Assembly (NCBI GenBank): GCA_937960435.1
Contig: CALGPN010000028.1
Span: 1 to 64,000, forward strand
Reading direction: 5' to 3'
From: an uncultured Desulfosoma sp.
Lineage (GTDB): Bacteria > Desulfobacterota > Syntrophobacteria > Syntrophobacterales > DSM-9756
DNA length: 64,000 nt
A program made the position numbers and the translations under genes. Below the pieces are notes generated by a model, which did no database searches, was not told where the DNA came from, and worked only from the letters and a program-made list of their open reading frames with translations. This document shows positions 8,164-49,103 of the stretch, piece after piece; within the stretch, counting starts at the first letter, position 1, and each line of letters begins with the position of its first letter.

Positions 8164-8174
8164 GGAGTTGCCTT

Positions 8175-13559: not shown

Positions 13560-13561
13560 GT

Positions 13562-14647: not shown

Positions 14648-14651
14648 GGCC

Positions 14652-18018: not shown

Positions 18019-18052
18019 GGCTGCCTCCTTTTTGATGAATGCACGGTCCTGA

Positions 18053-19351: not shown

Positions 19352-19365
19352 GGGTTGAGCTCCTT

Positions 19366-20640: not shown

Positions 20641-20687
20641 GCGCTCGCCCGTAACCGTCCCCGTCATGGTCCGTTGGCCGGAGGATG

Positions 20688-21413: not shown

Positions 21414-21459
21414 CGCGGTTTTCCTCGTGGGCCCTCATCCATCGGTTTGGTTTTGGCGT

Positions 21460-23334: not shown

Positions 23335-23340
23335 GACGGC

Positions 23341-24231: not shown

Positions 24232-24241
24232 ATCCATAACC

Positions 24242-24811: not shown

Positions 24812-24833
24812 GGGATCGGTCCTTCTCCTCGGT

Positions 24834-26702
24834 TTAGGCCGGCGAAACCGAAGGCCATTGGATGGCGTCATGGGGACACACGTGGACACACACGCCGCAT
24901 CCGGCGCACAGGGTTTCATCGATGGTCACGGCTTCCTTTTCGCCGTGGAAAACTAAAGCGGGGCATTCGAAAAACTTGAGGCAGAAGCCGCAGCCTTCGC
25001 ATTTTTCGGTAATTGTGGGAGCATGGGCCGGGCTCCTTCGGGCTTCGCGCCGGGCTTGGTCCATGAGGCACGGACGGCGGGCGATGACCACGGCCATCCC
25101 GCCGTTTTCCTCATCCCGGCAATGGTCCTTGGCGGCTTTCAGAAGGGCGGTAAACCCAGGGACATCGTACGGGTCCCCGACGCTCACATGAGTCACACCA
25201 CAGGCGGCGGCCAGGTTTTCCAGCGTCACGGCCGGCACAGGCGTTCCGTTCGTCGTCATGCCGGCGGCGGGAGTGGGCTGATGCCCTGTCATGGCCGTGG
25301 TGCCGTTATCCAAAATCACGACCGGAAAGCGGCACCCTTGGGCCACCGCGTTGATGAGAGCCGGGATGCCCGCGTGGTAAAAAGTGGAATCCCCGATGGT
25401 GGCCACCACAGGCCGGCTGTTTTGGCCGGCGGCGCGAAACGCGTGATGAAAGCCGGCCGCCTGACTGATGGAGGCCCCCATGCACAGGACCGTATCGACG
25501 GCCCCCAGGTTTAGGCCCAACGTGTAACAGCCGATGTCACTCGCATAAATGCCCTTGGGGAAAACTTTGCGGATGGCAAAGAAGGCGGCCCGATGCCCGC
25601 AGCCGGCGCACAGCGTGGGACGGCGTCCGGCAGCCGGCGGGCTCAGCGAAACTTCCGGGAGGCCCGCAAAGCGGCGGATGATGTTCTCTACGATTTCGGG
25701 CAGCAGTTCCCCTTCCCGAGGCACATGGCCGCTCAAACGTCCCAGGACTTTTGCCCGATCCCGCAATTGTCCTTCGATCACCGGCTGGGTTTCTTCCAGG
25801 ACGAGGATCGTGCCCGCCTTTTCCAAAAGTTCGGTGCAAAACCTTTCCGAAAGAGGATAGGGCATGGGGACCTGAAAAATGGGAAGGCGTGTCCAGAGAT
25901 TCAGGTCCCGAAGGATTTCCACGGCGTGGGCGCACGCGGCTCCTGAAGCGACGATGACTTTGTCGAAACCGTCGGCCGTTTTCCATTGCCCGGCCTCGTC
26001 CAAGATTTTGCGGTTGAGCATCTGAGGCTGCCAACGGGGGTCGTCGGCGATCTTGTCCAGCTTTTCGTTCAGGCGTTTATGGAGCAGGTATCGAAACTTG
26101 GGGGTCGCCGCCCACCGAGCGGGATCCTTTTCGAAAACGGGTTGGGGGGCGGCCGTTTGAAAAGCTTTGGGCGTCATGTCCTGGCGAGCGTGACACACGC
26201 GGGTCGTAGGCCGAAGGATCACGGGGATTTCATAGGCTTCGGAAAGCTCATAGGCTGGGGCGATCCAAGCGCGGGCCTGAGCCGGCTGGGCCGGGTCCAG
26301 CACGGGCAACTTGGCGAACATGGCGAACTGGCGGGTGTCCTGTTCCGTTTGGGAACTGTGCGGCCCGGGGTCGTCCGCTACGATGAGGAGAAAACCGCCC
26401 TTTACCCCCGTATAGGCGGCGCTCATGACCGGATCGGCGGCCACATTGAGGCCCACCTGTTTCATGGCGGCGGCGGATCGTCTCCCGGCGTAGCTGTTGG
26501 CCAGAGCCGTTTCCACGGCCACCTTTTCATTGACGGACCATTCCAGATGGCACGAGAGGTTGTGCCTGCGTTTGAGCTGCATCAAAGCGCTCATGATTTC
26601 CGAGGCGGGCGTGCCGGGGTAAGACGTCGCCATGGTGCATCCGGCTTCCAAAAGCCCATGGGCAATGGCTTCGTTGCCGAGGAGGATTGTCCGCGCTCCC
26701 AC
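24834..26702 (-). CDS. iorA: Indolepyruvate ferredoxin oxidoreductase alpha subunit
   Basis: 622-aa TPP- and Fe-S-containing subunit. The N-terminal pyrimidine-binding domain begins LLGNEAIAHGLLEAG and has SYPGTPASEI. The TPP domain (about 355-520) has LCAGCGHRAAFFAI and TIGDSTFYHAGIPALINAV. The C-terminus carries two ferredoxin-like motifs, CEGCGFCLKFFECPAL and CAGCGVCVHVCP. The GTG start at 26702 has GAGGAG 6 bp upstream. It is the first gene of the long - strand run ending near 6130. Aryl pyruvate specificity is from the family. Confidence 0.94.
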   Translation of the reverse strand: MGARTILLGNEAIAHGLLEAGCTMATSYPGTPASEIMSALMQLKRRHNLSCHLEWSVNEKVAVETALANSYAGRRSAAAMKQVGLNVAADPVMSAAYTGVKGGFLLIVADDPGPHSSQTEQDTRQFAMFAKLPVLDPAQPAQARAWIAPAYELSEAYEIPVILRPTTRVCHARQDMTPKAFQTAAPQPVFEKDPARWAATPKFRYLLHKRLNEKLDKIADDPRWQPQMLNRKILDEAGQWKTADGFDKVIVASGAACAHAVEILRDLNLWTRLPIFQVPMPYPLSERFCTELLEKAGTILVLEETQPVIEGQLRDRAKVLGRLSGHVPREGELLPEIVENIIRRFAGLPEVSLSPPAAGRRPTLCAGCGHRAAFFAIRKVFPKGIYASDIGCYTLGLNLGAVDTVLCMGASISQAAGFHHAFRAAGQNSRPVVATIGDSTFYHAGIPALINAVAQGCRFPVVILDNGTTAMTGHQPTPAAGMTTNGTPVPAVTLENLAAACGVTHVSVGDPYDVPGFTALLKAAKDHCRDEENGGMAVVIARRPCLMDQARREARRSPAHAPTITEKCEGCGFCLKFFECPALVFHGEKEAVTIDETLCAGCGVCVHVCPHDAIQWPSVSPA

Positions 26703-28571: not shown

Positions 28572-28611
28572 GTCCACCTCCACACATCTCTTTCCACGTA
28601 GCCCGTAGCCT

Positions 28612-28643
28612 GTAGGTTGGGGTGAGCGCAGCGAACCCCAACA
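28612..28643 (+). repeat. Type A palindromic repeat, copy 1
   Basis: 32-bp element beginning GTAGGTTGGGGT and ending ACCCCAACA; TTGGGGT pairs with ACCCCAA around an 11-base centre. Identical to 28768-28799 and, inverted, to 33400-33431 and 33590-33621. Confidence 0.95.
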
Positions 28644-28680: not shown

Positions 28681-28706
28681 CGGGCGGGCACAAGGCCCGC
28701 CCCTAC
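28681..28706 (-). repeat. Type B palindromic repeat, copy 1
   Basis: 26-bp element; GGGCGGGC pairs with GCCCGCCC around a 5-base loop ACAAG. Identical in inverse orientation to 33481-33506. Confidence 0.93.
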
Positions 28707-28767
28707 AAGCGCGCGCTTCCCGCTCCTAAAGACGCAGGCCGCGTGCCCCCAAGAGCCGGCCGTAGCC

Positions 28768-28799
28768 GTAGGTTGGGGTGAGCGCAGCGAACCCCAACA
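28768..28799 (+). repeat. Type A palindromic repeat, copy 2
   Basis: Identical 32-bp copy of the element at 28612-28643, same orientation. Confidence 0.95.
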
Positions 28800-33399: not shown

Positions 33400-33431
33400 T
33401 GTTGGGGTTCGCTGCGCTCACCCCAACCTAC
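33400..33431 (-). repeat. Type A palindromic repeat, copy 3 (inverted)
   Basis: Exact reverse complement of the element at 28612-28643, beginning TGTTGGGGTTCGC. Confidence 0.95.
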
Positions 33432-33480
33432 GGCTGACTACGGCTGACGGCCGCCCCGTGTAGGTGGACGGCGCGCGGCT

Positions 33481-33506
33481 GTAGGGGCGGGCCTTGTGCC
33501 CGCCCG
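33481..33506 (+). repeat. Type B palindromic repeat, copy 2
   Basis: Exact reverse complement of 28681-28706, beginning GTAGGGGCGGGC. Confidence 0.93.
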
Positions 33507-33532: not shown

Positions 33533-33558
33533 GTAGGGGCGGGCCTTGTGCCCGTCCG
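33533..33558 (+). repeat. Type B palindromic repeat, copy 3 (one mismatch)
   Basis: Same as 33481-33506 except GTCC in place of GCCC near the 3' end. Confidence 0.9.
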
Positions 33559-33589: not shown

Positions 33590-33621
33590 TGTTGGGGTTC
33601 GCTGCGCTCACCCCAACCTAC
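33590..33621 (-). repeat. Type A palindromic repeat, copy 4 (inverted)
   Basis: Identical to 33400-33431. A 15-base partial fifth copy (CTCACCCCAACCTAC) follows at 33624-33638. Confidence 0.95.
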
Positions 33622-33683
33622 GACTCACCCCAACCTACGGCCGTCGTATCCCGTTCATAGGGGACTATGTGAAAAAATTTTTC

Positions 33684-33955: not shown

Positions 33956-36900
33956 ATGGAGCACGCTCTTTTCCCTTGGGTGTGGGATTCGTCGATCTCG
34001 GAGCCGCCGTGGGAGCGCTCCCGCCGTTCCAATGGGTCGTGGTGGCCCGTTGTCACGGACGGCGGTTTCGGCCCATGCCTGGAAACCCCGAAAGGCCGAT
34101 ACCGTATTCTTTCTGAAGAATGGATCGCGGCAGGGCTTCGGCTGGCTTTGATGGGCGCCCGCATCGCCGTGGATCGTTTTAAGAACGGGGCCGATTGTTC
34201 CACGGAAGCGTCCCTGTGCCGAAAACACTTTACGGACGGCCGTTTTTACGGGCTCTTGGCGAGTCCCCCCCAGGAGCCGGCAACGGCCTTTGCCGTCGCG
34301 ATCTTCGTGCAGGACCCCCAAGGCGATTACACCCTTGTGGAAAGTCCTCTGGACGGGGCCGACCTCGGACCTTTTCTCCTCGCTTTTTCCCAGCTTGCGG
34401 GCCTGAAGCCTCAGGATCCGTCGCGCTACGACGACTACGGGGACGTCATGGTTTTGGGCGGGCACAATGTGGTGGAGCGGCACAGCACGGACAAGCGGGT
34501 CCGGTATCTTTCCCGCAAGGTCCACGTGGATGCATCCCAATGCACCCATTGTTTGCATTGTGTGGGCTTGTGCCATGAAATGCGCATGGCCGTGACCCCG
34601 ACCGGGATGGAACTTCTGGGACCCGCGGAAGACCACTGTACCCATTGCGGCTTGTGCCGGATGCGCTGCCCGTACCTTTTTTCCGTGACCCGAACGGAAG
34701 ACGCCGAGGAAGGTTGGGGACGCCGGGCTCTTGTGGAACTGGGAGCCGGAGTGAGGCTTTTGGGAAAACACGCCGTCTTCTGGAGGGAATGGCTCGATGC
34801 TCTGGAGGCGGGAAAACCTTCCGTATGGCCTTACATCATTCGAAGCCATTCTTATGGCGACGGCCTGGGAGTTTACGGCGAAATCTACCAGAAGATCTTG
34901 ACGCCCGTTCGTTCGGGATCCTTTTCCGGCACCGTGCCGGAAAGGGGCCTCAGCGTGACGTTCTTTTCCCAAAACGACATGCCGCGATGCCTCATCCGGC
35001 CGCATTTTACGGCGGGGCTTTTGTGCACCACGGAAGAGGGCCGGGTGGAGCGTGATCTTTTCCATGCGGCTCTGCAAGCCGGGCTGGAGGTTCGAGCCAC
35101 CGGGTTGTTTGAAGTGCCCGTTTCCGAGCCGGAACGTGCCCCTTTTGCCGCGACGCAAGATCTGCGGCGCCTGTGGGTTCCGGCCAACGAGACCACGCGC
35201 TTTTTCAAGGAACAAGGCGTCTGGGACGGCCGATCCATCGGGCGGCTGTGGCGGGAAAAGGCCGTCGATTGCATCCTGGTTCCGCGGCAGGAAGACGTCC
35301 CCGTGGACGTCCAAAGAAACGTGCTCCGTGACACGGGCCGCGAGGCGCTCATCCTGAGCCCCCATCTGCCGCAAAAACTTCCCGTGACCAAAAGCCCGCT
35401 TCTGAACGACCTTTCCGGACGGCTCCACGAGATCTTCCTCCGGCATCCTGAACTGCTGCAGGCTGAAGCGGGCATCGCCCGAAAACTTCTGGAAAACCTC
35501 CCACATTCCGCGGGTCCGCTCCACGCCCGTTACGGGCCCATGGCTTTTGCCGGGGGGCATTCGGCATGTCCGTCCTGCGCCGAAGCTCAGGTCTTGGCCG
35601 TTCCCGTGGCCATGGCCCTGGCCATGAGTCTCGCTCGGGGTGAAGTGCCTCAGGTGGCCTTCACCTGTGAAACGGGGTGCATGAGCGAAACCTTGAACAA
35701 GATGAACGAGACGGCTCAAAAGGTGCCCGGGGGCCGCACGGTGTTCGGGGGTGGTTTTGCTTTCGGCGAGGCCATGACCCAGGTGTTCGACCGGGCAGTG
35801 CGAATGGGCTTGCTGAAGAAAGGGCGGCGTTATGTCGTGAGCCAAGGCGGCGACGGCGGGGCTGTGATCGGTCTCCCGGCTTGGCTCAACGCCTTGCGCC
35901 AGCAGGCGTTCCTCATCCGGCAGCGCTGGCCCAATGCGCTCCATTTCATCACCATCACGGACACTCAGGTTTATTCCAACACGGGCGGCGAAAGTTCGGC
36001 CAGTTCGCTTCTCGGCATGGGCACGCTCACCACTCCCATCGGCAGGTTCCTCATGGGAAATCAGAAGATCCAGTGGAACCTCATCAACCTGGCGGCCGAA
36101 TTCCCCGGCATCGTCGTCGGCATGGGCCACAGTGCGGATCGGGCGTCCATTCAGGAATTTTGGCTTCTGGCGGATCGATTGAGTCGGTCCGGAATCCGCT
36201 GGGATGTGACGCCGTGTCCCGAAACCGGAAAATTTTTCGGGCAAGATCCCGACGACTATGCGCGCATTATGGCCTACGCCGGAATGCTGCCCCAAGTGGT
36301 CTTTTATGGGCGATACCGAAAACGGGTGGCGCCGTACCACCCTGAAGACCGGGGCAAACCTTTCGAAGAATGGCGGCGCGATCCCAAACCCATCTTGTAT
36401 TGGATTTCCCGGGATCCGCGCTACAAGGCCATGCTCGTGCGGGATCCCCACACGGGCGAATGGGTCCCGAGAAACGCCCTGGCCCGGTTCCTCATGATGC
36501 AGCTCGAGACCTACCGGGATCAGATAAATTGGCAGATCGATCTGGAAACACGGCTCATCCTGCAGGCCGAAAAAAGGGTGCGCGCTTTCCTGGGCGAGCT
36601 TCAAACCCAGTGGGCGGCACATCGGCACGACCCCGACGCGTTTCCTTACAGCGTGCTTTTTGACGAGGACGGTCGCCTGAAGCCGCACTTCGCCCACAGC
36701 CTGGAGCATGACATGGTGGTGCGTCTTTTGGGGCGGGAGACAGGCAACCGTTATGCCGCCCTCCAGGAGGCTTTTCAGGATGAAGACCAAAAACGATGGG
36801 AGGCGGTGACGCGGGCTTTGGAAAGTTTGGAAGCCTACGAGGCGGGCGTCGAACCTTTCGGGGACGATGAGGAGGAACTCACCCGCAGGCGCCAAGACGC

Positions 36901-39900
36901 CCGGGAGGCTTTGGAACACCTCCGAAGAGCGTACGCGAAACTTCGAGAGACGGTGACGAACCTGTGGGCGTCGGATCCCATCGGGCGGGAGCTCCTGCGT
37001 CCCGTGGATCCCGATGAAGTCGGCCCCGAAGTCGGCCCCGAACGACGCCCCGCCGGGGTGCTCTATGAGATTCTGGATCGAATCCTCGAAGAACGGGCCC
37101 TGGCCGAATGGACGGAATTTCAGCAATATCGGCTTTCCCGGGAGCTTCGGCGGGATTTCCTGCGCACAGGCGGGCTCATCCGCACCCAGCACGTTCAGGC
37201 GGCCCTCGAGGAACGGGAAGCGCTTCGGCACACCATTGCCCGATTCGGCCCCTTTAGCATCGCCGTCGCCAGTTTGGCCGGCGATCGTGGGATTGCCATC
37301 AATCGGGTTTTCGCCCAGTTTCTGACGGCGAAGGGCTGTTGGGCGGGGATGGCCTGGCAGTTCGGATCATCCAAACGAGGCACCCCCGTTCTTTCGGCCA
37401 CCTTCGTGGACAGCCGGCCGCTGGAACGAAAAGACGCCATGTTTACGTTTCCCTCCCTGGTGACGACCGTGACCAACTTCGAGGAAATGAAAAGAGACCC
37501 CGACTTGCTTTTCGGGTCGTTACGGGTGGGCGGCACGGTCATCGTGAATCACTGGGAGGACCCGGAACGACTGTGGCGAGAAGTGCTGCGGTTTTGCCCG
37601 CAGACCATTCAATCCGTGGTGATCGGTCTGCGCCGTCGGGCGCAGGAAGAGGCCGGTTGGAGCCTAGAGCGACTGGAATCGGAACTGGAGAAAGCTTTGG
37701 CTTCCTTAGGGGTGCGGCCAGGTTCCCGGGAAGGGGATCGCCTGCGCGCCCTGTGTCGGGCGTTGGTCTCATGCCGCATGGTCACCGTCGATATGGACGG
37801 CATCATGGAAAAGGTTTCGGGTCGTCCCGGTATGGTTTCCAACCTGGTGGCGGTTTCCCCCATTTTCGACACTTTGGCGCGGTCCGGGCTTCCTTTCGAC
37901 TGGAAGCGGGACAAAGACAGCCTCATCCGGGGATTTCCCGAGGCCGTCCTGAAGAACCCGAATCTGCTCCGCATCTATGGGGACGCCATGGAAAGGGCGC
38001 GAACCCAACGCCGGGAGTGGCCGTCTCCGATCCTCGACGCCTTGCCCGCAGCCGAGAACTCTGCAACCCCGGCCGCGAAACGGGCATTGTCTCCCCTTTC
38101 CCCCGATGTTCGAAGCTGTGGGGACGACCCAGGCGATGCCCTCATGATCATGGGAGGCACCCTGGCGGGCATGGTGCTTTCCCAGATCGCCCTCCCGGAA
38201 CACCCCCTGTTTTATGTGGGTTTTCCCATCACCCCTGCGGGGAATCCCTTTTATGCCATGGCGGAAGCTTTCGCCAACGGCCACCCCTACATCGTGGTCG
38301 ACGAAATGAACCCGTCGGAAAAGGTGGCGGCGGAAAAGCTCTTGGGCGTGGCCCGAACGGGGTTGTTTCTGCCGGTGACGTTTACGGCGTCCCAAGGCTG
38401 GAGGCTTTTTACGGAAATCATTCCCCAGTTTGTGGGCGCTCGCCTGGAAGGCCTTTTCCTGTTGGCCAAAAGAGCCTTGGCCGCCCCGAACCTCAACATC
38501 GAGGAAAGCCACACGGATTTCATGAGCTTTCGGGATGATGGGGGCATCATGTTGGCCCCGAAGAGCATCCAAGAGTATGTCCCCTGCCTGTACCTGGCAA
38601 GGTTGCTCACTCATTTCGCCAAGCTGCCCGTCATTCTCTCCATCGGGGGCATCACGGACACCCACAAGATCGGGTTGACCCGCGTGCCCCCTGATGCAGT
38701 GGTGCGCCGATGGCTCTCGGAAACCCTGAAAGGGTTCGATTTTCTGGAAGACCGCATCGTCAACCGATCGGGCCGGCGGATCGTGCACGGTCCCAGCTGC
38801 ACGGCCGCAACCTACCAGGAAACCCAAAGCGAAGTGGAAAAAGCCCATGAAATGGTCCGCTCGGTGTGGCCCTACGCCGTGGAGGCCGTGCGGCGCCTGA
38901 CCGGGGTCGCTTTGAACCCATGCGAAGTGCGCACGGCCGGATCGGTCATGGCCGAGGCCCAAGCGCCTCAAAAGGAAGGACTGGAAACCCTGCTCATCCT
39001 CCAGGGGTCTCTCTTTCCCAATGCCGTGGAGGCCCTGCAGGAACTGGAAGAGGAAGGCTGGCGGGGCTTGGGGGCCATGTCCGTGCGGCTCATGAATCCT
39101 TTTCCCGAAGAGGACATCCGGCGGTGGACTGAGGGCCTCCGGGCCGTGGCGGTTTTGGACCGCTCCAACAGTTTTGGGTCCATCCCGCCTCTGGCCTCAC
39201 GGGTTTTCAATACCTTTGCCCGCATGGCGCCCGGCGGGGATCGTCTTTCGCCGACGATCCTCAGAACCTTGGTTGGGGGCTTGGGCGGCCGAGAAATCAC
39301 CGTGCCGGAGATGAAAGAGCTGCTTCTTTCCACGCACCTGCTGTTCAGCCCCGCCGAACCCTGGGAACGGGAGGCTCTGGAACGCTGGGTTTCTGAAGAC
39401 GGGGCGCTGACCGATTGGGTGGAAGAACTCACGGCCCTGTACCTGAGGGCCATGGCGCGTCATACGCGGGTTCCGGCACACGTGAGGAAACAGGGGTTTC
39501 GGGAAGAAGAGTCGATTTGTCGAGAACGGATCCGCCGACAGATCGTCTCCCGCGATTATGTGGGCCTCCTGGCCCATTACAACCAGGTGGAATTTGTGGC
39601 GCCGAGAGAACTCTACGGTGAAACGGTGCTGCGACAACAACTTGTCCTGGAATTGGAAGTGCGGTTGGCGCGACTGGCGGCCGAAACCGGTCGTGTTGAT
39701 CCCCGACGCGCTCTGGTGCTGCTCCATTACGGAACCGGCCCCGAAGACCGGGAAGCAGGGCGAAGGCTCCTTGGGCAACCCGCCAAAGCCTGCATGTCTC
39801 CAGGTTTGCTCCGCCGCTTCGGGCTGGAACCGCAATCCCGTTGGGATGCTCCGGCGAGGGATGTTGCCGGGGGGACTCTCGAGGACCGTGCCGCCCCTAT

Positions 39901-40315
39901 GTGGCCGGCGCCTGCGCCAACGTCGGAAAGGACGACGGTCGTGCCTTGGACGTGCCTTTTGGAAGATGAGAAAAAGAACGCCGAACTGGAGGTGGCTTTC
40001 GAACCCGATGAGGCTGCGCGGATCGAAAAAGTCCTCGAACATCTGGTGGATCGGGCGGCGCGTACGCCTCTGTTTTTCAACCCCGAAGACTACGATCGGC
40101 GGCTTCTGGAAGTGTTGGCAGAAGACGCCGAGGCCCAATGGAGCCGCCTCCGTCGGGATGTGTCGCCGGATTCCTTGCCGGCGTTGGAAGATGCCTATCT
40201 GTGGACGTATCGGGATGTCATCGACCGATGCGTTCCGAGGAAAGTGCTTGCCGCATTCTATGGCGTGGACATCGACCGGTTCGGCTCGTTCGACCACGAC
40301 CGCGGCCGAATATGA
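33956..40315 (+). CDS. Giant fused PFOR-type 2-oxoacid oxidoreductase (ferredoxin-beta-gamma-alpha), 2119 aa
   Basis: One chain with all 2-oxoacid:acceptor oxidoreductase modules in an unusual order. Residues about 190-245 carry two ferredoxin-type Cys motifs (CTHCLHCVGLC from Cys196, CTHCGLCRMRCP from Cys228). The TPP/beta domain (about 530-770) has Cys538-x2-Cys541, Cys575 and Cys754 as likely proximal-cluster ligands, GDGG at 633 and TDTQVYSNTGG near 670. A gamma-like domain follows (about 1100-1280). Alpha domains I-II (about 1390-1790) include GFPITPAGNPFYAM, TFTASQGW and RLMNPFPEEDI with AVLDRSNSFGS. About 330 C-terminal residues are unassigned. Single-chain PFORs run alpha-gamma-delta-beta. 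AAGGAG precedes the ATG. Expected chemistry is oxidative decarboxylation of a 2-oxoacid to acyl-CoA, or the reverse; the substrate is unknown. Confidence 0.85.
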   Translation: MEHALFPWVWDSSISEPPWERSRRSNGSWWPVVTDGGFGPCLETPKGRYRILSEEWIAAGLRLALMGARIAVDRFKNGADCSTEASLCRKHFTDGRFYGLLASPPQEPATAFAVAIFVQDPQGDYTLVESPLDGADLGPFLLAFSQLAGLKPQDPSRYDDYGDVMVLGGHNVVERHSTDKRVRYLSRKVHVDASQCTHCLHCVGLCHEMRMAVTPTGMELLGPAEDHCTHCGLCRMRCPYLFSVTRTEDAEEGWGRRALVELGAGVRLLGKHAVFWREWLDALEAGKPSVWPYIIRSHSYGDGLGVYGEIYQKILTPVRSGSFSGTVPERGLSVTFFSQNDMPRCLIRPHFTAGLLCTTEEGRVERDLFHAALQAGLEVRATGLFEVPVSEPERAPFAATQDLRRLWVPANETTRFFKEQGVWDGRSIGRLWREKAVDCILVPRQEDVPVDVQRNVLRDTGREALILSPHLPQKLPVTKSPLLNDLSGRLHEIFLRHPELLQAEAGIARKLLENLPHSAGPLHARYGPMAFAGGHSACPSCAEAQVLAVPVAMALAMSLARGEVPQVAFTCETGCMSETLNKMNETAQKVPGGRTVFGGGFAFGEAMTQVFDRAVRMGLLKKGRRYVVSQGGDGGAVIGLPAWLNALRQQAFLIRQRWPNALHFITITDTQVYSNTGGESSASSLLGMGTLTTPIGRFLMGNQKIQWNLINLAAEFPGIVVGMGHSADRASIQEFWLLADRLSRSGIRWDVTPCPETGKFFGQDPDDYARIMAYAGMLPQVVFYGRYRKRVAPYHPEDRGKPFEEWRRDPKPILYWISRDPRYKAMLVRDPHTGEWVPRNALARFLMMQLETYRDQINWQIDLETRLILQAEKRVRAFLGELQTQWAAHRHDPDAFPYSVLFDEDGRLKPHFAHSLEHDMVVRLLGRETGNRYAALQEAFQDEDQKRWEAVTRALESLEAYEAGVEPFGDDEEELTRRRQDAREALEHLRRAYAKLRETVTNLWASDPIGRELLRPVDPDEVGPEVGPERRPAGVLYEILDRILEERALAEWTEFQQYRLSRELRRDFLRTGGLIRTQHVQAALEEREALRHTIARFGPFSIAVASLAGDRGIAINRVFAQFLTAKGCWAGMAWQFGSSKRGTPVLSATFVDSRPLERKDAMFTFPSLVTTVTNFEEMKRDPDLLFGSLRVGGTVIVNHWEDPERLWREVLRFCPQTIQSVVIGLRRRAQEEAGWSLERLESELEKALASLGVRPGSREGDRLRALCRALVSCRMVTVDMDGIMEKVSGRPGMVSNLVAVSPIFDTLARSGLPFDWKRDKDSLIRGFPEAVLKNPNLLRIYGDAMERARTQRREWPSPILDALPAAENSATPAAKRALSPLSPDVRSCGDDPGDALMIMGGTLAGMVLSQIALPEHPLFYVGFPITPAGNPFYAMAEAFANGHPYIVVDEMNPSEKVAAEKLLGVARTGLFLPVTFTASQGWRLFTEIIPQFVGARLEGLFLLAKRALAAPNLNIEESHTDFMSFRDDGGIMLAPKSIQEYVPCLYLARLLTHFAKLPVILSIGGITDTHKIGLTRVPPDAVVRRWLSETLKGFDFLEDRIVNRSGRRIVHGPSCTAATYQETQSEVEKAHEMVRSVWPYAVEAVRRLTGVALNPCEVRTAGSVMAEAQAPQKEGLETLLILQGSLFPNAVEALQELEEEGWRGLGAMSVRLMNPFPEEDIRRWTEGLRAVAVLDRSNSFGSIPPLASRVFNTFARMAPGGDRLSPTILRTLVGGLGGREITVPEMKELLLSTHLLFSPAEPWEREALERWVSEDGALTDWVEELTALYLRAMARHTRVPAHVRKQGFREEESICRERIRRQIVSRDYVGLLAHYNQVEFVAPRELYGETVLRQQLVLELEVRLARLAAETGRVDPRRALVLLHYGTGPEDREAGRRLLGQPAKACMSPGLLRRFGLEPQSRWDAPARDVAGGTLEDRAAPMWPAPAPTSERTTVVPWTCLLEDEKKNAELEVAFEPDEAARIEKVLEHLVDRAARTPLFFNPEDYDRRLLEVLAEDAEAQWSRLRRDVSPDSLPALEDAYLWTYRDVIDRCVPRKVLAAFYGVDIDRFGSFDHDRGRI

Positions 40316-40354: not shown

Positions 40355-43300
40355 ATGGGGATTGAAGGCATCCGCTCGCAACATTCCTTGGATCGCTTTT
40401 TCGCCACAGTAGCCGCCGACCGAAACCGGGGTGTGCGCAAAGCAGCCCGCGAGCTCACCGCGGCTTTGGCCGGCAGGTTTCGCCTCAGAGATTCTGTTCA
40501 AGAAATTCACTCAGCCGTGGAACAGTCTCTCCGCGCCCTTCGAGACATCGATGCAGGCGTGCAGGGCGCGCCCGAGGGTCTGGATCCGGAGGCGTTATGC
40601 CTCGGGCTTTTCCGCCGCCGATGGTTCGAGGCCGCCCATCCTTTAGACCACGCGGGTCGTGCGGGATTCTTCGCGGTGCAACCGTGCAATGTGCTTTCCT
40701 GGGTTCGGTGGTTTCTCCTCGTGGAAAACTACCATCGGACAGATCCCGAGCATCACGATCGCCGGTTGGATCGGTTGCGTTTCTTAAAAACCGAAAACCC
40801 CCTCGCCCCGTGCGTCACGCATGAAGACCTGCTCCTCTGGTTGGAACACGAACTCCTGGCCGACGAACGGGAACCGTTGCCCGAAGTCGCGCGCCGATGC
40901 GTTCGGCAGCTTGAGCGCCGGCTGGATGCGACCCTTAGGCCCGACGTCCCTTTGGAAGCCTTCTTCTACGTCCTTTTGCGCTGCCATCAATTTTGCCTTG
41001 CCGAGACGCTTTCCGAAGAGGATGCGGCAAGACTCCAGACTGTTTTGGGACGGCGCCGATTCCTTTCTCTTACAGAGCTCATGCTCGTCGTCATTCACCG
41101 AGTCATCGACAAGGAACCTCTTCCGGACGCCGTCACGGTCCTGGAAGGTCTCATGGCGGATGGCTTTCAGTTGCGTCACGCAAGCTTTAAGGATCCCTAC
41201 GAGGCGGACATGGTGCCGCCGGAAGAGACGGCTCGCTTTGACGAAGCCGTGATCCGTCTTTTCATGCCCGTGGAGGCTCTGAGCGGGTTTTTGGAGAAAG
41301 ATTGCCGGACCGTCTTGGAGGAATGGCAGGAAAGACGCCGGAGGGTGCTGGATGAGCTGCTGGAAGAAATTCGAGAACTGGAGCGCCTCGTCGTTCGGCC
41401 CTTGCCTCGAAAACATGCCCTTGCGCAAACCGCTCGACTGCTCACGTCCTGGTGTTTGGCTTTCTGGGAAGGGGCGGCTCACGAAAAAGGTCCCGCTTTG
41501 TTGATCGATCGGGTGAAGGCGGCGGTTCCCGAAAGGATCGTCAAGGCGCTGGTTCGGCAACGGCGGGGCTATGAGCTGGCGACGCGAAAAGAGCTGACGG
41601 AACTTGTGGAACGGGAATGTCGCCTCCAATGGGACAGCTATTGGAAAAAGGCCGGCTCCCGAACCTTCGGGGAGGCCGATTTTCGAACGACAACCCGCAC
41701 CCAGGCCTTGGCCTCCGGACCGGAACCCCCTGCGGACAATGCCGTGGATCCGGTGCGGCTTGCGGAGAGCCTGAAAGCTTTGGCGGACCAGGTGGAACGG
41801 TTCAAGGTCACGGAGGAGGCGGCCGCTTCGGGTTCGTGCCTCGCCGGCCCCATCTCTTTTCCCATGATGGGAACTCCGATGGAGTTTGTGGCCTATTTTC
41901 GAGATGTTGTTCCCATGGAAGAGGTCAGCCGCCATGGTCCCCTTTGGGAACGGGTGAACCCCGGGGAACTGGAAGCGCTCTATGAACGCACGGCTGCACG
42001 TTGTGCCGGGGCTTTCTACCGGTTCGTGTGCGCGGACGTGAAAAAGGCTCAGGGCGCAATTTTGGAGCTTTCCTTGGCAGAGGTTCCGGATTTGGCGGCG
42101 GTGCTTGTTCCCCCGTGGGGTCGTGTGGCCGAAGCACTGGCTGAAAGCGCCTTGCGGCGGTTTCAGGACCAGGCGGAGCCTTTGTATCGACGCCGCAAAA
42201 ATCCCGTGTGCGTGGACCGGGAAGAGATAGGTGTGCATTTGGCGCATTTTCTGGTGCGGGACCTCGGAGCCGATGTGCTCGAGGCGGCTGAAACGGCTTC
42301 CGTGGCATCGTTGCGCACCGCGCTTGTTGAAGAAGCGACACGGATCATCGCCCCGACGTCCGTGCGGACCTCGACGGCGCCCGAAGCCTTCCTGCTGCAG
42401 TGGGCGGGGGTGCTGAACGGAACCAAAGGTGCGGAAGAGCTCACACGAACCCTCGCGGCGACATTGCCGGGTCTGAACTGTGGGGCTTGTGGAGAAAGCC
42501 GGTGTTCAGCCTTCGCCTTGGCCCTTGCGCAGGGACGACGGCGTGCGGCGGAATGCGTTCATTTGTCGCCTGCGGAACGGCATCGGCTTGAGGACATGCT
42601 TCGCAGCCAGGCGACCCAGGCGGGGGGGGAAAACGGTTTCGGGTCGGCTTACGATCTCTTTCGAAATCCCCAGATGTGGCGCTGTCTCTCCCCAGGGCAT
42701 CCCCTGCGTCGGTCGGTGGTGAGAGTGCTGGATTGGAGCCGACAAGAAGTGCGGCGTCGGGTCTTGGATCGGGCCGAAGAGATTTGGCAGGGTCTGGAAC
42801 CCAAGCCGAGCCTTTTTAAAAGGCCGAGCCCGGAAGCGTTCTACGAAAGTCTTGTGGAAACTCTCGGCTACGAAGCCGCCGAGAGAATCCGCCCCGAAGA
42901 GCGCCACTGGCTGTGCCGTCACGGCCTCAAACGATTGGAAAAGGAACTGGAGCGACTGAACGGCCGAGCCGATTGGCTGACCCTGGAACGCGTTCGGGTT
43001 TCCAGCGGCCCTTTCAAACAAGAAGCCGACCCCGAAACCCAATCGGAACGGTTTTACGGCTCGGTCAGCTACCTCCACCAGCTGCACGAACTCGATCGGC
43101 GCCGTCTGTTGGTCCATCGGATGGAGCGGTTCGAAGAAGGTTTTTCCCAATGGTGGAATCAGGACCTTCTCGCCATGAACCATCCCAGGTACCGGATCGA
43201 CAACTGGGAAGAATTTTCCAAAGTGATCAAAAACGCTTATTGGCATCAGGAAAATTTCCCGCCGCCCCGGCGCGTGGCCTCCGAGCTCCTCGAGGAACTG

Positions 43301-44818
43301 GAAAGGGATGGCGAAAAGGAAGTGTTTTTCCGAGACCTTTTGGCCTCGTGGATGAAAAGCGTTCCCATGGAAGGCACCGGGGCCTTGGCTGCGGCAGTGG
43401 ATGAAGCCGTCGCCTCGGGCCGGGCCGAAAACCTTCCGGCGGAGGCCCTGCGTGCGTGGATCGGGGACGCCCTCGCCAAAGGGGAGGATTCGGGCCGGGT
43501 TCTGGAAAAGGTGCTGAGCCGGCTTCACCAGTCCCCTTTGTGGAAGGAACGGCTCCTCGTGGATGCCTTGCAGAAAATGGTGAGCCTCACCCGGTGGCGG
43601 GTGCTCACGGAAAGTTTTTCGGGTGTGGTTCTCGAGGGCATCCCGCAAGAAGAGGCGGCCTGGTACGCGGAAAATTTTCCCCGATGGATGCCCAAAGTGG
43701 AAACGGCCGTCCGGCGCAAAGGGGATTTCGACCGGGATCGGCTCCTCCATTACCTCTACGTGCTGGCCAAAAGGGAGGGCGATCTGGACGTCATCACGGC
43801 CCTTTTGAGGGAGATTCGAGAAACGTCGGATATCATCGAGGCGGCGTGGTTGCAGTTTACAAACGATCGGCTGACCGAAGCGCTCCCGGTGCCTTTGGCC
43901 AAAGGGCTCGGGGCGCGCTACAGCTTGTTGCTCAATCGGGTCAAGGATCACGAAGCCGTGCGGCGATGCCTGAGCCAGGGGATTTCTCGAGATGAGAAAG
44001 CCGATGTGGCGGCTGCCGTCCGTGAGCTGCTGCTCTACATGCGCTTCCACATGGTTCAGGATGCAGCCGAATCCATGGATCTGGACGCGTGTTTCGAGTC
44101 GTTTTGGGAAGAGGGCTACAATGTGGAGGGACTGGACAAGGACGTGTTGCACCAGGCGTTTGCCAGAGAATGGAAAAATCGGGATCGGTGGCGCAAGGAC
44201 CGCGTCTGGATCATGACCATGGCCGTCGCCCGAAGGTTGGCCTCCCAAAGCCATGAACTGTACGAAGCCGACAAGGCTTTCGCCAAACTCCGCCAGGGGC
44301 TGCTCAAGGAAGAAGGGCCGGCGGAAGGTCGAGACCTGGTCCGACGTCGGGGGATCGCCCTGGGTACCATCAAGGAAGCCATGTACCGGGAACTGTCGGA
44401 GCTGCTCCAGAGAGAACGCATGGAATCCTTTCGAACGCGCATCCGCCAGATCGTCCATGAGCTGGACCGAAAGAGGCTGCGCATCGTGCAGTCGTGGTTT
44501 TCCGGTTCCCTGGATCGCTTCAGTGTTTTTCATATCCTTCGCCAATTTCAAAAAAGGCCCGAACCCCCGAGCTCTGACGATTTGAGGGATTTTTTCCTGG
44601 AGCAATGGTTTGACCGTATCGAACGACTCCGGGAATCGCATCGGCAGGACCGACACGATCGGATTCGCGAAGCGGACGAGGGGATCCAGGCTGTTTTCGG
44701 TGTGTCTCCTTTGGCCATGGAAAAAGAAGCCGAAAAGGAGGCCGCTCGGGAATGGAGCGCCTGGTGCCGGGATGTGGAAAACCAAATCCGGCGGCTGTGC
44801 CTTCACGCCCCGGCGTGA
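40355..44818 (+). CDS. Giant mostly helical protein with one Fe-S motif, 1487 aa
   Basis: I do not recognise this protein as a whole. Most of its length looks alpha-helical, rich in Leu, Glu and Arg, with no signal peptide or membrane segments. One recognisable element lies at residues 705-735: LPGLNCGACGESRC, giving Cys709-x2-Cys712-x4-Cys717-x16-Cys734, the pattern of the 4Fe-4S domain in RnfB and CODH/ACS gamma proteins. It lies 39 bp after the 2-oxoacid oxidoreductase gene, with GGAG 6 bp before the ATG, and 32 bp before the NAD-module gene. An electron-relay scaffold joining the two is inferred from position. The frame is continuous over 4.4 kb. Confidence 0.8.
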   Translation: MGIEGIRSQHSLDRFFATVAADRNRGVRKAARELTAALAGRFRLRDSVQEIHSAVEQSLRALRDIDAGVQGAPEGLDPEALCLGLFRRRWFEAAHPLDHAGRAGFFAVQPCNVLSWVRWFLLVENYHRTDPEHHDRRLDRLRFLKTENPLAPCVTHEDLLLWLEHELLADEREPLPEVARRCVRQLERRLDATLRPDVPLEAFFYVLLRCHQFCLAETLSEEDAARLQTVLGRRRFLSLTELMLVVIHRVIDKEPLPDAVTVLEGLMADGFQLRHASFKDPYEADMVPPEETARFDEAVIRLFMPVEALSGFLEKDCRTVLEEWQERRRRVLDELLEEIRELERLVVRPLPRKHALAQTARLLTSWCLAFWEGAAHEKGPALLIDRVKAAVPERIVKALVRQRRGYELATRKELTELVERECRLQWDSYWKKAGSRTFGEADFRTTTRTQALASGPEPPADNAVDPVRLAESLKALADQVERFKVTEEAAASGSCLAGPISFPMMGTPMEFVAYFRDVVPMEEVSRHGPLWERVNPGELEALYERTAARCAGAFYRFVCADVKKAQGAILELSLAEVPDLAAVLVPPWGRVAEALAESALRRFQDQAEPLYRRRKNPVCVDREEIGVHLAHFLVRDLGADVLEAAETASVASLRTALVEEATRIIAPTSVRTSTAPEAFLLQWAGVLNGTKGAEELTRTLAATLPGLNCGACGESRCSAFALALAQGRRRAAECVHLSPAERHRLEDMLRSQATQAGGENGFGSAYDLFRNPQMWRCLSPGHPLRRSVVRVLDWSRQEVRRRVLDRAEEIWQGLEPKPSLFKRPSPEAFYESLVETLGYEAAERIRPEERHWLCRHGLKRLEKELERLNGRADWLTLERVRVSSGPFKQEADPETQSERFYGSVSYLHQLHELDRRRLLVHRMERFEEGFSQWWNQDLLAMNHPRYRIDNWEEFSKVIKNAYWHQENFPPPRRVASELLEELERDGEKEVFFRDLLASWMKSVPMEGTGALAAAVDEAVASGRAENLPAEALRAWIGDALAKGEDSGRVLEKVLSRLHQSPLWKERLLVDALQKMVSLTRWRVLTESFSGVVLEGIPQEEAAWYAENFPRWMPKVETAVRRKGDFDRDRLLHYLYVLAKREGDLDVITALLREIRETSDIIEAAWLQFTNDRLTEALPVPLAKGLGARYSLLLNRVKDHEAVRRCLSQGISRDEKADVAAAVRELLLYMRFHMVQDAAESMDLDACFESFWEEGYNVEGLDKDVLHQAFAREWKNRDRWRKDRVWIMTMAVARRLASQSHELYEADKAFAKLRQGLLKEEGPAEGRDLVRRRGIALGTIKEAMYRELSELLQRERMESFRTRIRQIVHELDRKRLRIVQSWFSGSLDRFSVFHILRQFQKRPEPPSSDDLRDFFLEQWFDRIERLRESHRQDRHDRIREADEGIQAVFGVSPLAMEKEAEKEAAREWSAWCRDVENQIRRLCLHAPA

Positions 44819-44850: not shown

Positions 44851-47800
44851 ATGAATGTCTATCAGCCTTTGGATCCTGAGACGACGTGTCGTCCCTCATG
44901 GTGGTTGGAGCGCCTTCGGTGGGCTTCGGCCCGTCCGGGGCCGATCCGCGATACCCGGATCCCGAAGGATCTGCAGCCTCTGGCCGCGGTCGTGAGTGTC
45001 TTGCGGGCGGGCTTGGATGAACTGCGCCTGTTTCTGGCCACGGATTCCGAAAAGCTCCGGACGTTTCTCCAGGCATTGGAAGAAGAAGCCCAAGGGCCGT
45101 GGGGGCCTGATCCGGAAAAGCATACGGTCTGGCTGGTCCGGGAAGCTCTGGCGCGTGGGGATTGGCGGGAAAAGGACGTCATCGACATGATCCTGAGCCT
45201 GGTGTCGTCTTTCGAACCCCAACTCCCCCCACAGGTGCGCGACGCCTTGAGGAGGTTCCAAAAAATCCGCGCGTCCTCAAACGCTCATGCCCGCACGATC
45301 ATGGACGGCATGATCAGTGAAGCTCGAGGCCGTCTCGGGGGGTTGCAGTGGGTGCGCCAATCCGATGCTTTCCAAGGGTGCCCTCAAGGCCCCTTGGGAC
45401 TCGGCTCCATCCGGTGGCTCCGGGACACCTTCGCTGCCATGACCGGTTGCGCTCGGGATCTTCCCCAGCGATCGGACGAGGAGCTGTCGGGCATGGACGG
45501 CGCCGAATTGTGGCGGGACGTGGAAGAAGCCGTGAACACCGCCTGGAGAAGAGCGGGGCGGGTTTTCCCCATGAAAGATGTGGAAAAGGCTTCCCTGTAT
45601 CTTATGGAAGACATGCCCGCACGGGATCCAAACCATGGGTTCTTCATTCGGTATTTGATCGAAGAAGAGTCGGCGTACAGGCGCGTGCTGAAAACGTGTT
45701 ACGCGGACGTGTCCGTGCAGAAGGAGGCTTTGGACGAAGAGTGCCGTCGGTTCAACCGTCTTCCGGAACATGCTGCCCATCCCGTATTCTATGACGCCGA
45801 CGAAAAAACATGGTGGCTGAGGGCCTTTTTCTTCCGCCCGGATGTGGTCCAATGCTTCGTGGAGCGGGAGAGGGCCAAGGACATCTATGGTGTGCTCAAG
45901 GGTTTGGACGCCCGGGCCTATCTGCCTCGGGTGCTCCACGAAGTCCAGGGTTTGTTCGGCTATGTGACGCCGGAATCGTGCGAAAGGATCGTGGACCGCC
46001 TCGGCTTGGATCCCGAGGACGTCCTTCGGGTCATCGCCTCTTACAAGCAGTACAGTGCCGACCCGTCCGGGGAGATCATCGTCTACGTGTGCAAAGGCAC
46101 GGCGTGCTTTTTGAGGGGGCAGCCGGAACTGAGCCGGCGCCTCACGGCGGAAATCGGCGCGGATGTGGGAGCCGTCGGGCGCTGGGGGGTGCAGTATGTG
46201 GAAATGGACTGTTTCGGTGTCTGCCATCTGGCCCCGGTGGTTCGGGCCGGGAACCGCTTTTTCGGAACCCAGAAGCCCGAGGATATCCCGAGGCTTGTGA
46301 GCCGGCTTATTCAAGGCCCCGATTACGAAAACCGGCGGCTTTTCGTGGAACGCCTGCTGGAAAAGATGCCTGTGGAAACGGTCAGCGAACCTGTCGAGGC
46401 CTTGACGGCGGCCCTGGTGGGAAGGTTTCCCAAAGAGGTTCGCGCGGGAGAAGGGCCGGGAGGTTTCTGGGACGAAGCCTACCGGGACCGGCCGGTGATT
46501 GTGGACCATAAGGGGACTATCGCCGTCCAAAACCCGGACGGGACCCTTGACAGCCTCGGCCGACTCATGAGCGGGGCGATTCCTTTCAAGACGCGGGATG
46601 TGGACGGATCGGAGCGTTTTGGGGCGGTGCTGGTCGATGATGGCGGTGGTGTGACCTTTGGGTTGGGCCTGCCCGATGTCGCCGACGGCGCTTTGGGGGG
46701 CAGGACTGGGAGCCCGACGGCTCGTGTGACGGACGGTCAGGTGGTGCTCTCGTTTCCGGACCGTTCTCTGCTCTTGGGGCCCTACACGGATCGGGTGCTT
46801 GTGGCGGAAGCGGCCAACGCCTATGTGTGCCTTGTTTTGAAGGCCGAAGGCTCTTCCGTTCCCCCTGCCGTCGAAGATTCCCCCGCCGCCGAGAAGGGGG
46901 CTGTGGAAGACGGAGCGTTTCGATCCGCCCAGGATCGGGTGGTCTTGGATTTCGCGGCGGCGGGGCAGCCGACACAGATCGATTCCTATCGGGCGGCCGG
47001 AGGCTATGAATCGGTGTACCGTGTCTTGGGGTTTCGAGGCGAACCCCGGTGGGATCCGGATCGGATCATTGCGGAGGTGCAGGAAGCGCGCCTCCGCGGA
47101 CGCGGCGGAGCGGGTTTTCCCACGGGACGCAAGTGGGAGGCCATGCGCCGAGCCGTGTGCCGGATTGAACCGGAGGACGGCAATCGGGATCCGGTCAAGC
47201 TCATTGTGGCCAACGGAGACGAAGGGGATCCCGGGGCTTTCATGGATCGGACCCTCATCGAGGAAAAGCCTCACCAACTTTTGGAGGGGATGATTTTGGC
47301 GGCCGTCGCGGTCGGCGCCCGCTACGGGGTCATCTACGTGCGCAAGGAATACGAAGATGCCGTGCGTCGTTTGGAGGACGCCCTGTTCGAAGCGCGCCGC
47401 TGCGGGTTTCTCGGGCGGGATATTTTCGGGGTCCCGGGGCTGGATTTCGACATTGAAATCCGTTTGGGGGCCGGCGCGTTCGTGGCAGGAGAAAAACGAG
47501 CCATCATGCGGGCCATCGAAGGAAAGCCTGCCGAACCCACCATTAAGGCCCCGTCCAACACGGTGCGAGGCCTGTGGGGGAAACCGACGCTCCTCAACAA
47601 CGTGGAAACCTTCGCCAACGTGCCCGTGATTTTGCAACGTGGCAGCGCGTGGTACGCTCGTCTGGGGACTTCCCGAAGCGGCGGCACGAAAATCTTCTCC
47701 GTTGCCGGCATCGTGAAGAAAACGGGGCTTGTGGAAGTCCGGTTCGGCAAGACTTTAGGAGATATCATCGAAATCTGCGGCGGGATCCAAGACGGGAAAA

Positions 47801-48516
47801 AACTCAGCGGCGTCCAGATCGGAGGGCCCTCGGGGGCCATCCTCTCTCTGACGGGCGCTCGGGCCTACCTGCTCCAGACCCCTCTGGACTTTGACACCTT
47901 CAACGATGCCGGAGCCATGCTGGGATCGGGCGGTCTTGTCTTCATCGGGGAAGACGACGATGTGGTGCGTCTGGCCCGCCATTTTACGGACTGGCTGGCG
48001 GAAGAATCCTGCGGGCAATGTCCGTCGTGTTTTCGAGGCACCCGCGCTTTGGGCCGGGTTTTGGACAGGATCCTGGCCGGCCAGGGGACGGCGGCGGATA
48101 TTCACGAACTGTGGGCTCTCAGCGACGTGGTGCGGGCCGGAAGTCAGTGCGGCCTGGGGACGACCGCCGCCAACCCGGTGACCAGCGCTCTGAGGTTCTT
48201 CCCGGCGGCTTTCTTCCATTATCTTCTGGGTAACCCGGAGATGAACCCTCGGGAGATGTTTGAGGCGTTGGAGGCCCTTAGGCTTCTCACACGTCAGGAA
48301 ATCGTCCGTGTCACCGGGGTGCGGCGACAAGTGGAAGGGGCGGCGTTTACCCTGAAACGGCATTTGGTACGGTTTCTCGTGGAAGAAACGGAAAGAATCG
48401 ATCAGTATCGCCCGGAGTCGCTTCGAATGACGGAGCGGCTCCTGAGGCTTCTGGGGCTGCCCCGATACGAGGTGGGCCAAAGGGAAGTGCTCATGGAATG
48501 GCGTGATGTCGCCTAA
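44851..48516 (+). CDS. Giant NuoE-NuoF (HydB/HoxF-like) flavin and NAD module, 1221 aa
   Basis: Residues about 1-345 are an unassigned helical region. A NuoE-like thioredoxin-fold [2Fe-2S] domain follows (about 350-500; Cys414-x4-Cys419 and Cys454-x3-Cys458). Residues about 510-690 are unassigned. The NuoF part (about 720-1110) has the FMN/NAD motifs RGRGGAGFPTG at 750, ANGDEGDPGAFMDR near 787 and the [4Fe-4S] ligands Cys1054, 1057, 1060 and 1100. The usual GEETAL segment reads GEKRAI (about 881-886). The ANGDEGDPGAFMDR form matches HydB/HoxF rather than respiratory NuoF. No C-terminal ferredoxin domain is present. ATG 44851 has GGGGAG 8 bp upstream. Likely passes electrons between Fe-S clusters and NAD(P). 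Confidence 0.88.
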   Translation: MNVYQPLDPETTCRPSWWLERLRWASARPGPIRDTRIPKDLQPLAAVVSVLRAGLDELRLFLATDSEKLRTFLQALEEEAQGPWGPDPEKHTVWLVREALARGDWREKDVIDMILSLVSSFEPQLPPQVRDALRRFQKIRASSNAHARTIMDGMISEARGRLGGLQWVRQSDAFQGCPQGPLGLGSIRWLRDTFAAMTGCARDLPQRSDEELSGMDGAELWRDVEEAVNTAWRRAGRVFPMKDVEKASLYLMEDMPARDPNHGFFIRYLIEEESAYRRVLKTCYADVSVQKEALDEECRRFNRLPEHAAHPVFYDADEKTWWLRAFFFRPDVVQCFVERERAKDIYGVLKGLDARAYLPRVLHEVQGLFGYVTPESCERIVDRLGLDPEDVLRVIASYKQYSADPSGEIIVYVCKGTACFLRGQPELSRRLTAEIGADVGAVGRWGVQYVEMDCFGVCHLAPVVRAGNRFFGTQKPEDIPRLVSRLIQGPDYENRRLFVERLLEKMPVETVSEPVEALTAALVGRFPKEVRAGEGPGGFWDEAYRDRPVIVDHKGTIAVQNPDGTLDSLGRLMSGAIPFKTRDVDGSERFGAVLVDDGGGVTFGLGLPDVADGALGGRTGSPTARVTDGQVVLSFPDRSLLLGPYTDRVLVAEAANAYVCLVLKAEGSSVPPAVEDSPAAEKGAVEDGAFRSAQDRVVLDFAAAGQPTQIDSYRAAGGYESVYRVLGFRGEPRWDPDRIIAEVQEARLRGRGGAGFPTGRKWEAMRRAVCRIEPEDGNRDPVKLIVANGDEGDPGAFMDRTLIEEKPHQLLEGMILAAVAVGARYGVIYVRKEYEDAVRRLEDALFEARRCGFLGRDIFGVPGLDFDIEIRLGAGAFVAGEKRAIMRAIEGKPAEPTIKAPSNTVRGLWGKPTLLNNVETFANVPVILQRGSAWYARLGTSRSGGTKIFSVAGIVKKTGLVEVRFGKTLGDIIEICGGIQDGKKLSGVQIGGPSGAILSLTGARAYLLQTPLDFDTFNDAGAMLGSGGLVFIGEDDDVVRLARHFTDWLAEESCGQCPSCFRGTRALGRVLDRILAGQGTAADIHELWALSDVVRAGSQCGLGTTAANPVTSALRFFPAAFFHYLLGNPEMNPREMFEALEALRLLTRQEIVRVTGVRRQVEGAAFTLKRHLVRFLVEETERIDQYRPESLRMTERLLRLLGLPRYEVGQREVLMEWRDVA

Positions 48517-48536: not shown

Positions 48537-49103
48537 ATGACGAAAGAGAAAACCTATTTCGAAACGTTTCGAGAAATGGTGCAGGTGGTGAGCGGGTCCT
48601 TGGATGTGCAGAGCGTGCTCCAGGCCATGGTCCACACCATTCCCCGAGTTCTCGGGGTTAAGGCGTGCGCCGTTCGCCTCCTGGATCCCAAGGGTCGGAC
48701 TCTGGAATTGGCCGCAAGCTATGGGCTGAGTGACGCCTACATCCATAAAGGCCCCGTGGACGCGGACCAAAGCCTGGCGGATTCGCTCCAAGGCCGGACG
48801 GTCATCATCACCGACGCGGGGACGGATCCTCGGGCCCAATACGGCGACGCCGCCCGCCGGGAGGGAATCGTGGGGATCTGTTCGGTGCCGCTCAAGGTCA
48901 AAGGGCGCGTCATCGGTGTGTTGAGGATCTACACGGACGCCCCGAAGGATTTCCAGGAAGAGGATGTCGCTTTTGTGGAAGCCTTGGGGGAATTGGGAGG
49001 CATCGCCATCGAAAACGCCCGCATGTACGAGCGGCTGAAGAAGGATTACGAAGAAGTCATGAGCGATGTGTTCCGTTTCGTGGGCTATCGCCGGAGCCTG
49101 TGA
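48537..49103 (+). CDS. GAF-domain protein
   Basis: 188-aa stand-alone GAF domain with no output domain. It has DVQSVLQAMVHTIPRVLGVKA, DADQSLADSLQGRTVIITDA, and EGIVGICSVPLKVKGRVIGVL, the core GAF pattern, then a helical tail. AGGAGG lies just before the ATG, 20 bp after the NAD-module gene, so it is probably the fourth gene of that operon. The ligand is unknown. A sensor or allosteric role for the complex is inference. Confidence 0.85.
   Translation: MTKEKTYFETFREMVQVVSGSLDVQSVLQAMVHTIPRVLGVKACAVRLLDPKGRTLELAASYGLSDAYIHKGPVDADQSLADSLQGRTVIITDAGTDPRAQYGDAARREGIVGICSVPLKVKGRVIGVLRIYTDAPKDFQEEDVAFVEALGELGGIAIENARMYERLKKDYEEVMSDVFRFVGYRRSL

Follow-up and report, generated by a model that had tools for sequence, protein, structure and literature searches.

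The stretch of DNA analysed here, referred to below as the window, comprises the first 64,000 nucleotides of contig CALGPN010000028.1 (assembly GCA_937960435.1) from an uncultured Desulfosoma sp. On its forward strand three very large genes follow one another: one for a fused 2-oxoacid (pyruvate-type):ferredoxin oxidoreductase (OFOR; 33956-40315), one for a helical iron-sulfur (Fe-S) protein of an unnamed family (40355-44818) and one for a NuoE-NuoF fusion (44851-48516 from its likely start). They were assigned through Pfam and NCBIfam searches and alignment, complemented by AlphaFold2 models for the middle protein and by an alignment with pyruvate:ferredoxin oxidoreductase (PFOR) for the first. 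The middle gene, which a first-pass annotation of the window had proposed as an open reading frame (ORF) between two redox enzymes, begins with ATG and encodes 1487 residues with a calculated mass of 171 kDa. Its coordinates were confirmed and, because homologues in 17 further genomes retain an open frame (at about 20-69% identity), it can be taken as a genuine gene and no artefact. The proposed position was also correct, with the amendment that both neighbours are themselves giant and carry long additional regions without Pfam match.

Members of the 1487-aa protein family range from about 1490 to 1730 residues. No complete member is shorter than the window protein: the others have about 105-245 additional residues, most of which fall into a variable region around residue 1000. 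In this regard, at least about 105 residues that all complete relatives possess, including those of the same genus, are missing from the window protein at about 43350-43500 (residues ~1000-1050). Outside the Fe-S domain, conservation is best at residues ~901-966 and 1126-1172 and in the C-terminal region up to about 1400. No membrane-like segment is present, the highest 19-residue Kyte-Doolittle mean being 1.58, which agrees with the earlier claim that the protein lacks membrane sequence. Internal repeats, for which a self-comparison had been proposed, gave no match when eight segments were compared profile against profile, and no domain common to the protein and its two neighbours was found.

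The single recognisable element is a [4Fe-4S] domain of the type known from corrinoid/iron-sulfur protein (CFeSP) and RnfB, at residues 697-753 (42443-42613, forward strand). Pfam FeS (PF04060) matches residues 704-735 with E=6e-11 and 42.3 bits (cut-off 23), and it is the only Pfam family common to all 12 members scanned, as expected from the first-pass annotation, which saw nothing recognisable besides the Fe-S motif. The four cysteines of this motif, Cys709, 712, 717 and 734, follow the spacing CX2CX4CX16C, a pattern that 20,000 shuffled versions of the protein produced just once. In an alignment of the window protein with 18 sequences, 16 of which cover the site, all four are cysteine in 16/16 down to ~20% identity, while the remaining cysteines vary; the loss in homologues that would have spoken against the proposed scaffold and relay role did not occur. 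Cys214 was considered as an additional ligand and rejected: it is conserved in part but replaced by Leu in two genomes (G283 and G216).

NCBIfam matches are partial and all fall at the Fe-S site, naming the gamma subunit of CFeSP and RnfB. Neither membership holds: the model for the CFeSP large subunit (AcsC/CdhE; NF003195) gave 30.2 bits against a cut-off of 306, over residues 703-750 only, and that for RnfB (TIGR01944) gave 20.6 bits against 68.7, over residues 694-757. What the protein shares with both is the FeS-family [4Fe-4S] domain, a likeness confined to about 57 residues; the rest of CFeSP or RnfB gave no match.

AlphaFold2 models built from alignments of the window and its relatives' loci support the helical character claimed for the protein, residues 1-790 (pLDDT 83.8, pTM 0.71) and 690-1487 (pLDDT 84.3, pTM 0.68) both being almost all helix. 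In the two models, residues 697-753 fit the N-terminal [4Fe-4S] domain of CFeSP (9fzy_F) with a root mean square deviation of 1.2 Å over 55 residues, and the VIA Z scores of this match (9.5 and 9.6) stand well above the unrelated rows beneath. For the helical regions, Foldseek and VIA returned no convincing fold besides this cluster domain; since long models are barely tested by VIA except in a few stretches, the helical parts may still contain a known fold. Across Pfam, NCBIfam, Foldseek and VIA no family with a different role was matched. We conclude that the 1487-aa protein is a new protein family whose only recognised domain is one predicted [4Fe-4S] domain.

Upstream, the giant OFOR has 2119 residues (calculated mass 238 kDa) arranged as an N-terminal region of no recognised family, two [4Fe-4S] motifs, PorB with its thiamine pyrophosphate (TPP) site (~520-870), a helical insert, POR gamma (~1095-1290), POR_N alpha (1419-1636), PFOR_II (1677-1785) and a C-terminal region again of no recognised family. 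Both POR_N (92 bits) and PFOR_II (41.9 bits) score above their cut-offs. Across an alignment of eight sequences the cysteines of the Fer4 pair (C196, 199, 202, 206 and C228, 231, 234, 238) and of the proximal cluster (C538, C541, C575, C754) are invariant, as are E1455, T1426, R1506 and N675 of the YSNTGG motif. We take E1455 to be the TPP glutamate and T1426 and R1506 to be pyruvate contacts, with the roles of their counterparts in D. africanus PFOR. The features expected of a pyruvate/2-oxoacid:ferredoxin oxidoreductase (POR_N, PFOR_II, TPP glutamate, proximal and Fer4 cysteines) are thus present. The equivalog model for pyruvate:ferredoxin oxidoreductase, TIGR02176, gave 76.1 bits against a cut-off of 911, and the domain order is permuted, these domains being normally arranged otherwise. 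Since the closest matches are pyruvate enzymes, pyruvate is the likeliest predicted substrate, other 2-oxoacids being possible. The window's genome has eight further POR_N matches; the giant OFOR is therefore not the sole enzyme of its type in the host.

Shortly upstream of the giant OFOR gene lie two of the four window copies of the palindromic repeat TTGGGGTTCGCTGCGCTCACCCCAACCTACG, which is similar to repetitive extragenic palindromic (REP) elements (28611-28641 and 28767-28797, reverse strand; 33402-33432 and 33592-33622, forward strand); the genome has 117 copies at up to two mismatches, and a reversed control pattern gave none. A second palindromic repeat, GTAGGGGCGGGCCTTGTGCCCGCCCG, adjoins it in both places, with three copies (28681-28706, reverse; 33481-33506 and 33533-33558, forward).

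Downstream, the NuoE-NuoF fusion probably starts at 44851 and not at the ATG at 44752, which would overlap the 1487-aa gene; the later start is favoured because a ribosome site (AGGGGAG) stands there and homologues begin there. Counted from the ATG at 44752, as all residue numbers of this protein are, it has 1254 residues; the calculated mass of the chain is 139 kDa. The NuoE [2Fe-2S] ligands (C447, 452, 487, 491), the site for flavin mononucleotide (FMN) and NADH (776-958) and the [4Fe-4S] ligands (C1087, 1090, 1093, 1133) are kept, and the nearest solved relatives of the NuoF part are the HydB chains of bifurcating hydrogenases.

The order OFOR, 1487-aa family, NuoE-NuoF is preserved in full in 13 genomes drawn from several families, namely the window and 12 other loci (G002, G003 from Desulfacinum infernum, G004, G006, G007, G022, G025, G028, G029, G035, G036 and G283), and is found in part at contig ends in five more (G008, G009, G010, G033 and G216). 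The 1487-aa family is patchy within the class, where 16 of 56 genomes have it, and in a 395-genome sample of the phylum it occurs outside the class only in G283 and G216. In that sample the full-length 1487-aa-type protein and the giant OFOR are found in the same eight genomes, the sole extra being G001, which has the OFOR and NuoE-NuoF genes, both on broken contigs. Among 84,980 species genomes, a pattern scan recovered only two Desulfacinum loci, as the method detects close relatives only, and viral contigs gave no homologue of the 1487-aa protein. One ORF (L060 of G009; 2411 aa) joins a 1487-aa-type protein to NuoE-NuoF through a new linker. The genes flanking the trio differ between families. 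The flanking citramalate synthase or HMGL-like gene was considered as a pointer to the role of the 1487-aa protein and set aside, as these genes flank the trio only in the window's family.

Taken together, the order kept in 13 genomes, the near-identical distribution with the giant OFOR and the fused ORF support a shared complex, and the 1487-aa protein is probably the connecting subunit of an undescribed giant complex in sulfate reducers and related bacteria. Its three chains add up to a calculated 548 kDa. We favour, with moderate confidence, a role for the 1487-aa protein as the central non-catalytic scaffold and single-cluster relay of a soluble giant enzyme, a 2-oxoacid oxidoreductase linked to NAD, where it would take the place of BfuA. 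In such an enzyme the 2119-aa subunit would use TPP to decarboxylate a 2-oxoacid, pyruvate being the likeliest one, and the electrons would pass singly through the three [4Fe-4S] clusters of this subunit. The [4Fe-4S] domain of the 1487-aa protein (697-753) would accept them and hand them to the [4Fe-4S] cluster (B1) and FMN of the NuoE-NuoF subunit, which would reduce NAD+, while the helical remainder of the 1487-aa protein would hold both enzymes together. The relay fits because a single cluster sits between two cofactor-complete redox enzymes. We infer the physical complex, the electron path, the substrate, the direction and the absence of bifurcation from sequence, the path specifically from cofactor content and gene order.

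The scaffold and relay role had been suggested by the first-pass annotation. Of that suggestion, membership in a complex is supported by gene order, distribution and fusion and the relay agrees with the cofactors, while binding and electron transfer as such are presumed; the likeness of the NADH module to the Bfu type, and the place of the 1487-aa protein where BfuA would stand, had been missed. Several points weigh against the role we favour. Binding and electron transfer by the 1487-aa protein are predictions, a single cluster in 1487 residues is little for a relay, and the role of most of the protein is left unexplained. The fusion comes from one ORF of a metagenome-assembled genome and, since the genes often overlap, could be an artefact of a sequencing indel. 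The eight other POR_N matches of the host leave the physiological need unclear, the relatives come from only 18 genomes, which limits co-variation tests, and the bifurcation marks kept in the NuoF part argue against a plain "non-bifurcating" label.

These marks deserve closer attention. According to Losey et al. (2020; PMC7311640), bifurcating beta subunits are distinguished by A/E and M in the NADH region, by F for Y near FMN and by GGPSG in the SLBB domain. The corresponding A829, M831, F910 and GGPSG (1024-1028) are invariant in 11/11 giant NuoF sequences, at positions where the same genome's non-bifurcating NuoF reads T/K/Y/GGASF. What defines the Bfu family, according to Schut et al. (2022; PMC9304861), is a BfuBC core that carries clusters B1-B5 and C1. 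The giant has B1 and C1, but all five ligands of the B2 [2Fe-2S] cluster (Cys438, Cys/Thr476, His525, Cys531 and Cys536 of A. mobile HydB) are replaced in 11/11 giants: D1070 and L1108 occupy the first two positions, the last three have no equivalents, and no C-terminal His or Cys is available. B3/B4 (C-terminal Fer4, IPR017896) and the N-terminal B5 [2Fe-2S] are likewise absent in 11/11, with no further conserved cysteine set. A BfuA homologue (IPR017896 plus IPR001041), as expected for Bfu Types 1-3, was not found in the trio, whose middle protein matches only FeS, nor in the flanks, which were checked in part. The comparison of marks and ligands, which included proper BfuB controls from the same genomes, is sound, as two proteins of the window's genome behaved as expected: its BfuB (L116) shows every mark and every B2 ligand together with two Fer4 motifs at the C-terminus, and its second NuoF (L115) has the non-bifurcating marks. 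The giant is related to the Bfu type, but by its predicted cluster content it stands outside that family.

Without the ferredoxin-facing clusters of the Bfu core, the enzyme is unlikely to bifurcate, direct reduction of NAD+ being the likelier activity. The trio could still bifurcate or confurcate if NAD exchanged electrons at FMN and ferredoxin did so either at the Fer4 domain of the OFOR or at the 1487-aa protein's Fe-S domain, the ferredoxin branch having been relocated from BfuB to these partners. We consider this unlikely, though it is in line with the invariance of the three diagnostic marks in the 11 giants and with the existence of predicted Por-Bfu enzymes; the loss of B2-B5, which the Bfu definition requires, counts against it, and so does a NuoF-core tree that gathers the giants into one group without placing it relative to Bfu and non-bifurcating NuoF. 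Less likely still is a 2-oxoacid oxidoreductase of a new bifurcating or confurcating architecture, with its ferredoxin branch carried jointly by the OFOR ferredoxin domain and the 1487-aa protein. If true, it would mean flavin-based bifurcation without B2-B5, clusters now held essential for the Bfu family.

Alternatively, the 1487-aa protein could be an assembly or cluster-loading factor for both giants and no stable subunit. Co-occurrence and adjacency are compatible with this, and its Fe-S domain resembles that of CFeSP, which is reductively activated by a partner (complex 4c1n); the ORF fused to NuoE-NuoF, the invariant cluster ligands and the lack of an ATPase or chaperone domain in the family make it quite improbable. 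Adjacency by itself is no proof of a complex, yet it seems very improbable that the operon simply groups three separate proteins, a ferredoxin-linked giant OFOR, a giant NADH enzyme and a Fe-S protein unrelated to them, given the order kept across families while flanks change, the enlargement of all three proteins by regions without Pfam match and the fused ORF.

Beyond the trio, a GAF-domain protein recognised by Pfam (48537-49103, forward strand) adjoins it. Its gene directly follows the NuoE-NuoF giant, and such a gene adjoins the trio in 12 of the 14 loci examined downstream, in several families; L062 and L098 have two GAF domains, and the product may be a regulator or regulatory partner, or a fourth subunit. 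On the reverse strand, 16831-26702 holds ABC transporter genes of the branched-chain type, next to a gene for an AMP-binding (phenylacetate-CoA ligase-like) protein and one for a TPP enzyme of 622 residues that matches POR_N and resembles an indolepyruvate-type OFOR; together they are possibly an aryl or amino-acid degradation cluster. Glycosyltransferase, heptosyltransferase and O-antigen ligase genes form a surface polysaccharide cluster at 6964-15764, also on the reverse strand.

Among known systems, NADH-dependent phenylglyoxylate dehydrogenase (PadEFGHI) also couples an OFOR to NAD, as the trio is proposed to do. To our knowledge, that enzyme uses no NuoEF module on its NAD side and has no giant helical Fe-S subunit; the NCBIfam models of this comparison (NF045764 and NF045766) match weakly. 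HydB of bifurcating [FeFe] and [NiFe] hydrogenases (BfuB; 7p5h, 7t2r) shares with the NuoE-NuoF giant the NuoF core, FMN, the B1 [4Fe-4S] cluster and the marks A/M, F and GGPSG, whereas the giant lacks the B2 ligands, the two C-terminal [4Fe-4S] clusters and the N-terminal [2Fe-2S] of HydB and has NuoE fused in front. Neither the trio nor the 1487-aa family was found described in the open-access literature searched, which excluded subscription papers. Our results add a family of ~1490-1730 residues for which only the cluster domain has a convincing fold match, within an undescribed giant enzyme that appears to couple 2-oxoacid chemistry directly to NAD. They also provide a natural test of which clusters Bfu bifurcation requires, namely a NuoF relative with the marks but without B2-B5 and BfuA, and the question is experimentally accessible because Desulfacinum infernum DSM 9756, a named cultured strain, carries the trio. 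The closest published kind is Por-Bfu, predicted pyruvate-linked BfuABC enzymes of Chloroflexi and syntrophic Proteobacteria (Schut et al., 2022; PMC9304861), in which a pyruvate-type OFOR and a NuoE/NuoF-like NADH module are likewise encoded together. The trio differs in consisting of three giant, fused chains, in its BfuB-like part without B2-B5, and in having no BfuA and an added 1487-aa Fe-S protein: it is built around a new protein family.

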